Shown here: in pieces, positions 55,049-57,838 of the stretch | Numbering within the stretch: the first letter of the stretch is position 1 | Layout of the letters: the number at the start of each line of letters is the position of its first letter | From: Rubellicoccus peritrichatus | GTDB taxonomy: Bacteria; Verrucomicrobiota; Verrucomicrobiia; Opitutales; Cerasicoccaceae | Length of the DNA stretch: 64,000 nt | Assembly: GCF_033100135.1 (NCBI RefSeq) | Contig: NZ_CP136920.1 | Location: 620,001-684,000, forward strand | Direction of reading: 5' to 3' | The notes under the pieces: generated by a model | The model's database searches: none | What the model saw: only the letters and a program-made list of their open reading frames with translations | What the model was told of the DNA's origin: nothing | Made by a program: the position numbers and the translations under genes

Positions 55049-55591
55049 TCAAGCATCCGCCCGCGCAAGCGTTTGCAAAAATTCCTCCCGCCAATGGTAG
55101 TTCTCCAGGAGGCTTGGATCATCATCACCCAGCATTTTCCGGGCAAGGTAAAGCGCCTCAACCGAAGCCAGTCCCGCAGTCGGGTCTTCAGCGATTTTGC
55201 TGACACGCGGATAAGCAGTCGAAATCCCTTCGGGAAGACTGCGGCAGATCGGCTCACCATGTATTTTTTCTTCAAGCTGAGGGAGCAGGCGCCAGGTTGA
55301 GTCGAGCAAAAGCAATGGCCGCTCCAGACGGTTGGTTTGCTGAAGGCGATCCTGATTGAAACCTGCCTCCAGCAAACGATCGCGCAATAATGATTCTTCG
55401 CCCTGATTAAGCTCGGTATCGGCCTTCGAAAGAACAGGAGCATCAACCGCCAACAGAATAAAACCAGTCGCATCAAAACGAAAATGATCCGTCGCCCGGC
55501 GAAAGAGCAAATCATCGCGCTGCCGCAATGGCTCGAGGCTGCATTTGCTCAACCGCTCCTTCGGATGTCTGACAATTAAAACAGGAATCAT
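55049..55591 (-). CDS. Tsr3/DTW-like RNA aminocarboxypropyltransferase candidate
   Basis: 180 aa from the ATG at 55591. [54 protein letters not shown] (D-x-T/S-W, the DTW-type motif), [15 protein letters not shown] and [15 protein letters not shown] follow the order of the TDD superfamily (Tsr3, TapT), which moves the 3-amino-3-carboxypropyl group of SAM to RNA uridine. The match is by motif only. A second minus-strand frame of 160 aa overlaps it and is a shadow. Confidence 0.55.
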
Positions 55592-55765
55592 GGTTGAATT
55601 AGATAAAAGAAGTGAAACTTGCCAGGACAAGCAGTCATTCAAAAGAATAGTATTTATGAATCTTCTTAGACCTGAAAGGCCATGGCATACCAAGCCCGGG
55701 GAACGCCCTGGGTTCAGAATAACTAAAAACAACATGAGCCCTGCAGGGGTGTTACATAGGTTTGC

Positions 55766-55888
55766 TTAATCCCATAGATAGCGCTCATCATATTCAACCT
55801 GATAGCGTTTAAGGAAATCGAGAAATTCCTCTTTAAATGTATATGACCTATGGTGCTCCAGTTGATTGTCGATATAGCATAATAGAAC
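55766..55888 (-). pseudogene. C-terminal remnant of a REP-associated tyrosine transposase (RAYT)
   Basis: Read on the minus strand, this stretch ends VLLCYIDNQLEHHRSYTFKE, then a short helix (EFLDFLKRYQ) and VEYDERYLWD followed by TAA. The pairing of YIDNQ, LEHHR, TF-EEF and EYDERY-W is the C-terminal signature of Y1 (IS200-like) RAYT transposases. Upstream, the HUH catalytic domain is missing and the frame has lost resemblance, so it is a broken fragment of about 40 codons. REP-like hairpins, the usual substrates of RAYTs, flank it on both sides. Confidence 0.65.
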
Positions 55889-55957
55889 TGGCAATTGAGA
55901 TTCGTAGAAGACTTTGTCTCTAGTGTGACAAAATGTCTGCGGGCTTACTCTGACAAA

Positions 55958-56068
55958 GTAAGCCGCTTAGTGTGGCTCTGCAAGCAGGCTTGGTGCGACG
56001 CAGTAAGCCCCTTGCTCTGTCTCTGCAAGCCCCTTACTTCGTTAGAGTAAGCCGCTAGGTCGAACGGG
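55958..56068. repeat. Degenerate 22-bp tandem array, five units
   Basis: Units start at 55958, 55980, 56003, 56025 and 56047 and are 22, 23, 22, 22 and 22 bp. Each begins G(T/C)AAGC, alternating GTAAGC and GCAAGC, with CCCTT or CGCTT often next. 22 bp is two helical turns, so the sites would face one side. The facing GGGCTTACT (55941-55949) can pair with AGTAAGCC. Confidence 0.6.
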
Positions 56069-56096
56069 ATATTCAGATTGCTTGATCTTTTCTCAA

Positions 56097-56165
56097 TCTT
56101 GAGGCTCGAAGGGCTGAGGCAAACAAGCCCCGGGTTTGGTATGTCATTACCTTGCAGGCCTCTTC
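56097..56165. repeat. REP-like element near trpE
   Basis: Words GGCTCGAAGGGCTGA, AAGCCCCGGGTTTGGT and GCAGGCCTCTTCAAG relate it to the 316-510 and 55668-55760 elements. TTGAGG (56098-56103) pairs loosely with CCTCTTCAAG. Confidence 0.5.
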
Positions 56166-56350
56166 AAGTCTGGAATTCGCATTTAAATCCCGGACATGTA
56201 AGCAAGGCAGCTCTATAGAAATACGATTGTGCGCAGTTTCGGTCTGCAGCTGTATCATGCAAGAATAGTCGAAGTTAGCCAGTCTTTGACCGCTTTTGCT
56301 TGTCTAGACATTACGGTCCGGTCACCGTTCAGCGTCCCACGATTTTTGAA

Positions 56351-57838
56351 ATGAAGCTATTTCCGACAGAAACAGAGTTTGTTGAGCTGGCGAAAGAGGG
56401 AAACCTCGTGCCTGTCTATACTGATTTGATGGCAGACTTTGAGACGCCTGTATCGGTTTTTTCCAAATTGAGAGCGGAAAAACCGGCGTTTCTATTTGAA
56501 TCAGTGGTCGGGGGCGAACACATCAGCCGTTACAGCTTTGCGGGATGCCGGCCAGTGAAGATTTTTGAAGCTTACGAGAAAGTAACTCGAATCACAGACG
56601 CCGATGGCAAAGTCACAGAGCTTCCAACACCAGCCGATCCATTGTCATTGGTGGAAGAAGAAATGGCGCAATACCAGCCAGTCAAAATCCCGGGGATGCC
56701 TCCAATGCTGGGCGGTGCCGTTGGTTTTCTAGGGCACGAGTATGTCCACTGTGTTGAACCAACCGTCCCCAAGGCTGCCAAAGATGTCCTTGGAGTGCCA
56801 TTGATGTTCTTTGCAATCATGGACAGCGTCGTGATTTTTGACTTGGCCAGGCAGACACTACGCCTCTGTGCCAATGCTCATATCGAAGAAAACACCGATC
56901 CGCTCGAAGCCTATCGCCTCGCTGTGGCCGAGGTGGAACGCCTTTACAGTCTGCTGGAAAAAGGCAGTAAACTCGGTCCGATGCCACTGACCGACACCGG
57001 AGAAATCACGGTGCCCGATGGAAACTTTACCAAAGAACGCTATGAGGGATTTGTTGAGAGCACCAAGGAATACATTCGCGCGGGCGATGTAATCCAAGTG
57101 GTTGGCTCACAGCGATTTGAAAAGGATTACACCTGCGATTCAATCGACCTCTACCGGGCTTTGAGAATCGTAAATCCTTCGCCATACATGTTTTGCCTCG
57201 ATACCGGAAGCTACTCTGTTGTCGGAGCATCGCCAGAAGTGCACGTCCGCGCAACAGAAGGCCTGGTCGAGATTCGTCCGATTGCCGGAACCCGCCCACG
57301 CGGCTCGACCGAAGCCGAGGATGTTGAGCTGGAAAAAGAACTGTTGGACGATCCCAAAGAACGGGCGGAACACCTGATGCTGGTTGATCTGGCACGCAAT
57401 GACATAGGTCGGGTCTGCGAAATAGGCACTGTCGAGGTGAAAGACTACGCACTGATCGAACGCTATTCTCACGTCATGCACATTGTTTCCCAGGTCGAAG
57501 GCCAACTTGCCGAAGGCAAAAATGCTTACGACCTAATGCGGGCAACCTTTCCAGCCGGCACCTTGACTGGCGCACCAAAGGTTCGTGCCATGCAGATTAT
57601 CTCTGAGTTCGAAGGTGAACAACGTGGTGTTTACGGAGGCGCCCTTGGATATTTCAGCTATCAGGGCAATCTGGATTGCTGCATCGCAATTCGTACCGCA
57701 CTGCTCAAAGACGGAAAGATATACATCCAGTCAGGAGCGGGCTTAGTCGCTGATTCTCAACCAGAAGCAGAATATTACGAAACGGTAAATAAGGCCAAAG
57801 GGATGCTGAAGGCCGTTGCACTTTCGGAGAAGCTTTGA
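56351..57838 (+). CDS. trpE: Anthranilate synthase component I
   Basis: Converts chorismate to anthranilate with TrpG. 495 aa from the ATG at 56351; an upstream TTG at 56300 is not conserved. DFETPVSVFSKL, SRYSFAG at the N-terminus, HVMHIVSQVEG, and the C-terminal active-site PAGTLTGAPKVRAMQII and YGGALGYFSYQGN are all present. Unlinked to trpG, so assembly of the complex relies on distant genes. No leader peptide or Trp attenuator was seen. Confidence 0.95.
   Translation: MKLFPTETEFVELAKEGNLVPVYTDLMADFETPVSVFSKLRAEKPAFLFESVVGGEHISRYSFAGCRPVKIFEAYEKVTRITDADGKVTELPTPADPLSLVEEEMAQYQPVKIPGMPPMLGGAVGFLGHEYVHCVEPTVPKAAKDVLGVPLMFFAIMDSVVIFDLARQTLRLCANAHIEENTDPLEAYRLAVAEVERLYSLLEKGSKLGPMPLTDTGEITVPDGNFTKERYEGFVESTKEYIRAGDVIQVVGSQRFEKDYTCDSIDLYRALRIVNPSPYMFCLDTGSYSVVGASPEVHVRATEGLVEIRPIAGTRPRGSTEAEDVELEKELLDDPKERAEHLMLVDLARNDIGRVCEIGTVEVKDYALIERYSHVMHIVSQVEGQLAEGKNAYDLMRATFPAGTLTGAPKVRAMQIISEFEGEQRGVYGGALGYFSYQGNLDCCIAIRTALLKDGKIYIQSGAGLVADSQPEAEYYETVNKAKGMLKAVALSEKL

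Follow-up and report, generated by a model that had tools for sequence, protein, structure and literature searches.

A decayed locus in the genome of Rubellicoccus peritrichatus probably represents the remains of a subclass 1.2 Y1 (HUH) element with mirrored arms, in which the 5' part of the gene has been replaced by a dispersed segment. The locus lies in the window, the 64,000-nucleotide stretch that was analyzed, and coordinates refer to the window unless another sequence is named. The initial annotation had described a decayed locus, a transposase remnant with REP-like words on both sides, and this description largely holds: the gene is a truncated Y1 transposase, and the words flanking it are inverted. 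The protein homology, the arms, the junctions, and dispersed copies of an arm in one other genome were all observed directly. Bacterial transposases have a well-known tie to palindromes, the REP/REPIN systems, which has been described for class-2 and class-3 Y1 enzymes. New here is that subclass 1.2 has mirrored arms and pairs of arms without a gene, which are of the REP/REPIN kind and whose function is putative.

The remnant gene corresponds to the last third, at the C-terminus, of a Y1 (HUH) transposase with about 150 amino acids. It was assigned to TnpA-Y1 subclass 1.2 by profile, BLASTP, and family searches. A 150-column profile (A1), which was built in this analysis from 13 family members and is not the profile of Quentin et al. 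2018, matches the minus strand at 55769-55903 (model 106-150 of 150, 53.2 bits, E 1.1e-13), and the stop codon follows at 55766-55768. At E<=1 the profile finds two places in the whole genome, the fragment and L001 (226.8 bits). L001 is the intact copy that had been proposed to be sought elsewhere in the genome; it is the one intact paralogue, and its arms are unrelated. BLASTP aligns the fragment without gaps to residues 116-151 of L001 (18/36, 50% identical), and this is its sole other match in the whole genome at E<=10 (E 1.6e-6). The fragment also has 18 matches at E<=1e-3 spread over 9 of 53 other genomes; these represent the family and the order, the same genus is not among them, and the state before truncation is unseen in them. 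Together these matches bear out the convincing C-terminal Y1 signature that had been claimed. The fragment was originally placed at 55766-55888 with 40 codons. It is real and somewhat longer, since the homology continues to 55903, about 5 codons past that end. On the minus strand there is an open frame at 55766-55894 (42 amino acids, TTG start), and from stop to stop the frame is open for 66 codons.

Part of the catalytic apparatus is retained in the fragment. The initial annotation saw no catalytic part, which is correct for the HUH half and incorrect for the YxxxQ motif, in which both Y and Q are still present. The Tyr codon is at 55874-55876 on the minus strand, as identified from the sequence and from profile alignment to solved IS200/IS605-type transposases. 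The motif aligns with the YIENQ/YIESQ end of 2fyx and 2xm3, the two best solved relatives of this type, and ISHp608 (2a6m) is also among the eight solved relatives listed. The tyrosine is presumably the nucleophile and the glutamine a metal ligand. Eight A1 columns inside the fragment are invariant or nearly so (Y116, I117, Q120, H123, H124, F129, E132, and L137), and all eight are unchanged in its alignment, suggesting that the truncation is recent relative to the age of the family. The intact columns and the open frame would also fit a functional small protein, for example a dominant-negative partner of an intact transposase, and Y1 dimers can share tyrosines in trans. This is very improbable given the TTG start and the decayed arms. 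The remnant is an ordinary case of decay of a mobile gene.

Searches with general models gave no matches to the fragment. The Pfam search that had been proposed for it was negative for the fragment itself, as were the NCBIfam models, and the Y1 models of these databases match L001 only to residues 119 (Pfam) and 117 (NCBIfam). Pfam was empty at E<=0.001 for the left neighbor at 55052-55591, and Rfam was empty at E<=0.1 for 55500-56300.

The motifs of the fragment are those of subclass 1.2. The available part of Quentin et al. 2018 (PMC6006769) characterizes this subclass by Y---Q--HH, WQ, a median length of 148 amino acids, and low copy number, and its table gives REP as 'no' and places the subclass chiefly in Cyanobacteria and Bacteroidetes. 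In the fragment the Y---Q--HH motif reads YIDNQLEHH, and the A1 match at 106-150 (E 1.1e-13) shows that the C-terminal domain following the Y motif is present as well. The HUH and WQ motifs are absent from the truncated fragment. Among the fetched relatives Y---Q--HH is found in 73 of 75, a HUH-type motif in 74 of 75, and WQ in 75 of 75, the last count not being independent because WQ belonged to the pattern used to find the relatives. L001 matches the NCBIfam IS200-type model (60.4 bits, cut-off 55).

The initial annotation had called the fragment a RAYT remnant, and this identity did not stand. If the fragment came from a class-2 RAYT (REP-associated tyrosine transposase) that spread the REP palindromes of the genome, inverted REP-like words would be expected on either side, as are found, and the genome does have a gene of this type, L002, matching the NCBIfam model REP_Tyr_transpos at 97.6 bits (cut-off 80). 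However, the motif is Y---Q--HH and not the Y---NP of class 2, and REP_Tyr_transpos matches neither the fragment nor L001 at E<=1. Also, the IS200 model matches 13 of the 13 aligned family members, as against 6 of 13 at E<=0.001 for the REP_Tyr model (best 4.5e-8). Class-2 identity was rejected on the Y motif and the NCBIfam result, and the whole scenario is improbable. L002 (1396-1872) and L003 (1123-1710), the latter a weaker REP_Tyr_transpos match at 52.4 under the cut-off of 80, are two further Y1 genes of this genome akin to class-2 RAYTs; the whole-genome search with the fragment matched neither. By eye, L002 seems to be flanked by the inverted word GACAAGCCGAACGT / ACGTTCGGCTTGTC, one per side.

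Mirrored arms are common at intact subclass 1.2 genes. The 5' and 3' arms of L001 are inverted copies of each other (82% over 105 nt), and as DNA each forms three hairpins, outer, middle, and inner, with folding z scores of -3.07 and -3.81. The inner hairpin is near the start or stop codon. In the flanks of 18 relatives the same arm plan was seen by eye in many, uncounted, with words differing from gene to gene. A larger sample was drawn from named records: of 583 confirmed loci, the 80 most like one protein were taken, so that the sample is neither random nor fully independent (L098 and L147 come from one MAG). Of these, 75 were kept, and five with flanks under 220 nt were dropped (L087, L096, L103, L137, and L150). 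As a control, 218 long ORFs were taken from 74 of these loci. The flanks show inverted similarity above the 99th percentile of the control at 60 of 75 loci, compared with 3 of 218 control ORFs, and above the control maximum (49) at 36 of 75, compared with 0 of 218. Folding at z<-3, based on 40 single-base shuffles for each flank, was found upstream in 40/75 loci (controls 6/74), downstream in 30/75 (9/74), and on both sides in 20/75 (0/74).

The arms are found in several phyla, and they do not follow a single rule. When loci are grouped by record title, the control 99th percentile is exceeded in 13/15 Planctomycetota, 20/24 Verrucomicrobiota, 3/4 Acidobacteriota, 18/24 Bacteroidota, and 6/8 others; at the control maximum the Bacteroidota fall to 3/24. 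Direct similarity between the flanks exceeds the control maximum in 13 of 75 loci, some of which carry direct copies. The inverted-arm rule is therefore not universal, because these 13 loci exceed the direct-flank maximum and 15 of 75 fail the inverted test at the 99th percentile. Pairing arms from different loci gives a heavier background (95th percentile 34, 99th 47, maximum 81) because words are common to different genomes. Own arm pairs are above these three levels in 55/75, 37/75, and 16/75 loci, respectively, and the own partner is the best of all partners in 34/75. Within the fetched flanks, 33 of the 75 loci have extra arm matches (E<=1e-4) once the gene and its surroundings, 230 nt to either side, are masked; this count is uncontrolled, and several matches lie just beyond the mask.

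Gene-less copies of an arm are numerous in Terriglobus albidus. The 113-nt 5' arm of L143 has at least 55 matches at E<=0.01 in this genome, which combine into at least 15 inverted pairs of 193-297 bp, and one of these pairs depends on a partial match of 23 nt. There are at least 40 arm places, including that of the query itself (39 further; each inverted pair counted once). These counts are lower bounds, as 40 of 164 candidates were scored. All 15 pairs are oriented as around the gene. Among the 16 loci listed, AGCGCTGAAGGCGC is near the start in 15 and is present with one change in the sixteenth, and seven display the inverse end of AGCGCTGAAGGCGC within the stretch shown. The same query had no matches in four of five other genomes and 4 weak matches in the fifth. 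The 5' arm of L001 matches nothing in its genome at E<=0.01 besides its own partner, and L001 thus has no gene-less pairs there. A positive whole-genome result for gene-less copies of an enzyme's own arm comes from one genome.

Comparison with known systems shows similarities to each of the Y1 groups. The Y---Q--HH motif, the length of about 150 amino acids, the WQ and DH[IV]H-type motifs of the intact relatives, and the low copy number in the window's genome are as in TnpA-Y1 subclass 1.2. In contrast to the REP 'no' given for this subclass in the available part of PMC6006769, mirrored hairpin arms are found in most loci tested here. The distribution also extends beyond the range given there to Verrucomicrobiota, Planctomycetota, and Acidobacteriota, and unlike the subclass as described in that part, one genome here has a dispersed gene-less population. 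A Y1 gene between inverted palindromes and scattered gene-less inverted pairs are features of class-2 RAYT / TnpA-REP systems with REPINs. As given in the same part of PMC6006769, however, class 2 has Y---NP and GT[AG]G-footed REPs, while the Y motif here is different and there are three hairpins per arm. Similarity to IS200/IS605 (subclass 1.1) is seen in the nearest solved structures, which include ISHp608, and in the fit of the NCBIfam IS200 model to L001. That subclass is described there as having many near-identical copies and small subterminal hairpins, in contrast to the mirrored arms found here and to the window's genome, where a single copy is intact. TnpA-Y1 class 3, as far as the available part of Quentin et al. 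2018 describes it, likewise has atypical flanking structures and many copies in an acidobacterium; its motifs are Y----Q and NHVH, whereas L143 has YIDTQAEHH. No report of REPs or mirrored arms for subclass 1.2 emerged from the searches of open-licence literature made here. The available parts of PMC3733652 and PMC4853749 deal with GTAG and CGTC repeats and with other MITEs, respectively.

Overall it appears somewhat likely that subclass 1.2 is a further REP-type system present in several phyla. Its enzymes would co-evolve with their own mirrored three-hairpin arms and could seed REPIN-like populations of inverted pairs, and in the window's family the arms would also be enclosed in IS5-type terminal inverted repeats (TIRs). 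The result would be miniature hybrids that bear the marks of two transposases unrelated to each other. If cognate arms and populations without a gene do belong to subclass 1.2, the association of transposases and palindromes is wider than in the published classification, and the GCCC..GGGC-type palindromes of Verrucomicrobiota, Planctomycetota, Acidobacteriota, and Bacteroidota gain a candidate enzyme.

Decayed arms are recognizable on both sides of the remnant. The 3' arm, on the minus strand at 55660-55766, was found by alignment to the ends of the B elements, a group of repeats of about 300 bp described below, and it keeps the order of inner word CACCCCTGCAGGGCTC, middle word, and outer word. 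The presence of REP-like words on both sides, noted from the start, was confirmed: on the plus strand, the left outer word at 55668-55701 is an inverted copy of the right outer word at 56128-56161 (28/34 ungapped, 82% over 34 nt). The right word is the leftover of the 5' arm and gives the far end of the old element. The remnant 3' arm scores 30-39 against the ends of six full B elements, compared with a maximum of 26 for 400 random pieces. Scores of at least 30 are also reached at 12 of 94 Y1 loci, the best being L056 and L157 (44), so the 3' arm is no closer to the B elements than to several intact arms elsewhere, which counts against the proposed reading. The arms of L001 score 19, which is the random level. 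The words of the remnant are recognized by sequence and not by present structure, because neither arm folds better than its shuffles (z +0.35 and -0.40), a further point against that reading. Outside the left arm, at 55624-55645 on the plus strand, there is a possible decayed IS5-type terminal repeat (p 0.0005 or 0.01 depending on the TIR form, with 2000 shuffles for each of two forms). A decayed TIR to the right of the remnant was not established by the same procedure (p 0.0125 and 0.29, 2000 shuffles per form).

The place of the 5' part of the gene is taken by a segment of 235 nt. It occupies 55899-56133 on the plus strand and is 87% identical to positions 2030647-2030881 of the same genome (G000:C1; 86% over 236 columns under another scoring). 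The segment opens with a lead of 24 nt, continues with a palindrome array, and closes with the left portion of a B element of about 300 bp. This last portion begins with the IS5-type terminal inverted repeat and is found on the plus strand at 56055-56135 (80% to positions 227-307 of the B query); other B elements also match as far as 56135. Both junctions are well defined. On the left, the segment starts at 55899 and protein homology stops at 55903, within 5 nt. On the right, the last position of the segment is 56133, which falls in the right arm (from 56128) and within CCCCGGGT (56128-56135), a word that the right arm has in common with the B middle word. The old element has lost two thirds of the gene, from its 5' end, and also the inner portion of the 5' arm.

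A typical intact element of this type has one gene of about 150 codons, with a mirrored arm of about 100 nt at either end; every arm carries three hairpins (outer, middle, and inner). The action of the enzyme and the order, direction, and age of the events we infer as follows. The enzyme would bind the hairpin arms on single-stranded DNA, its tyrosine would cut and join at the arm ends, and it would move its own element as well as gene-less copies made of two inverted arms. At the window locus, the segment also found near genome position 2,030,650 would have taken the place of most of the 5' arm and of the gene's first two thirds. The likely route is ectopic recombination, or conversion, between words of the arm type, because the right junction falls in CCCCGGGT, which the segment and the old arm have in common. 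The locus would thus provide one well-bounded example of the loss of such a gene. A second subclass 1.2 remnant was seen by eye at L060 (1459-1617, genome G017); it has an open C-terminal stretch of 53 codons, a retained 3' arm, and HUH-like coding upstream in a different frame.

The palindrome array within the segment does not appear to belong to the Y1 enzyme. It is made up of imperfect palindromes of about 22 bp led by GTGTGACAAAATGTC and extends over 55923-56056 on the plus strand (DNA fold z -4.89 for 55938-56058). The genome has nine such arrays, with variable halves and a lead of GTGTGNCAAAATGTC or one change from it. Besides the one in the window, they are at G000:C1 positions 472291, 1888829, 2030671, 2528946, 3157155, 4323821, 4372665, and 5377844, and a further one-mismatch match to the lead, at 4787343, is without an array. 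With two mismatches the lead is found at 9 places in its own genome, compared with 1 for a reversed-pattern control. Nine other family genomes have 6 matches summed, all with two mismatches, compared with 7 control matches. For four of the nine arrays, a B element or a piece of one lies no more than about 130 bp away. The arrays were considered as REPs of the enzyme and rejected: a query of window 55500-56400 gave 13 matches, none at the place of L001, and the lead word is not above control in the nine family genomes. The initial annotation had linked the fragment to the palindromes of this genome. This is right in that the B elements share the word class of the 3' arm, but they are bounded by IS5-type TIRs, and the searches made here revealed no tie to a Y1 enzyme for the 22-bp array.

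The B elements probably owe their spread mainly to their IS5-type ends, and the Y1 enzyme is probably not the driver. They are 293-309 bp long, and the genome has six full elements (query included), one partial element, and several pieces; in nine other family genomes at most 25 nt of the terminal repeat were matched. Their ends, CTAGGGCTAACGGACATTCA, are also the ends of a DDE element of about 847 bp in G006, a member of the family. The reading frame of that element is in two pieces, which match DUF4096 (88.5 bits) and DDE_Tnp_1 (73 bits), and L191 in G005, another genus of the family, is a related copy (77-82% identical). The same IS5-type ends bound other interiors in the window's genome (L192-L194 and L196). 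The spread is ascribed mainly to these ends because the TIRs match the DDE element and bound other interiors and other arms. No DDE gene was found in the window or in the ten own-genome stretches examined. At the flanks of seven B copies, inspection by eye for target-site duplications revealed only CTAG-like ends. L001 was rejected as the present driver of the B elements, as the genome contains no other match to its 5' arm and its arms score at random level against the remnant arm.

The shared ends raise the question of whether plain MITEs of an IS5-type DDE element account for the B elements and for the words near the fragment, with the Y1 fragment as a bystander. The match of CTAGGGCTAACGGACATTCA to the ends of the DDE element and its occurrence around other interiors agree with this. 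However, the interior of the B elements has the mirrored outer-middle-inner plan known beside intact subclass 1.2 genes (by eye; the remnant arm by score). In addition, the same TIR in G005 encloses arms that follow this plan but are built of other words (L170, L176 with L182, L185, L187, and L189, by eye), which plain MITEs would not predict. The bystander explanation is possible though rather unlikely, and a Y1 element with arms of its own is preferred. L169 of G009 was grouped by eye with the G005 loci as a second hybrid miniature family. The other interiors in the window's genome, at L192 (1502-1726), L193 (1430-1652), L194 (1521-1739), and L196 (1442-1974), range from about 220 to 530 bp and look unrelated by eye, and three of them contain an inverted GCACGAAG-type word, also by eye. 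A partial B element lies near the left end of the window, at 327-360 and 458-511.
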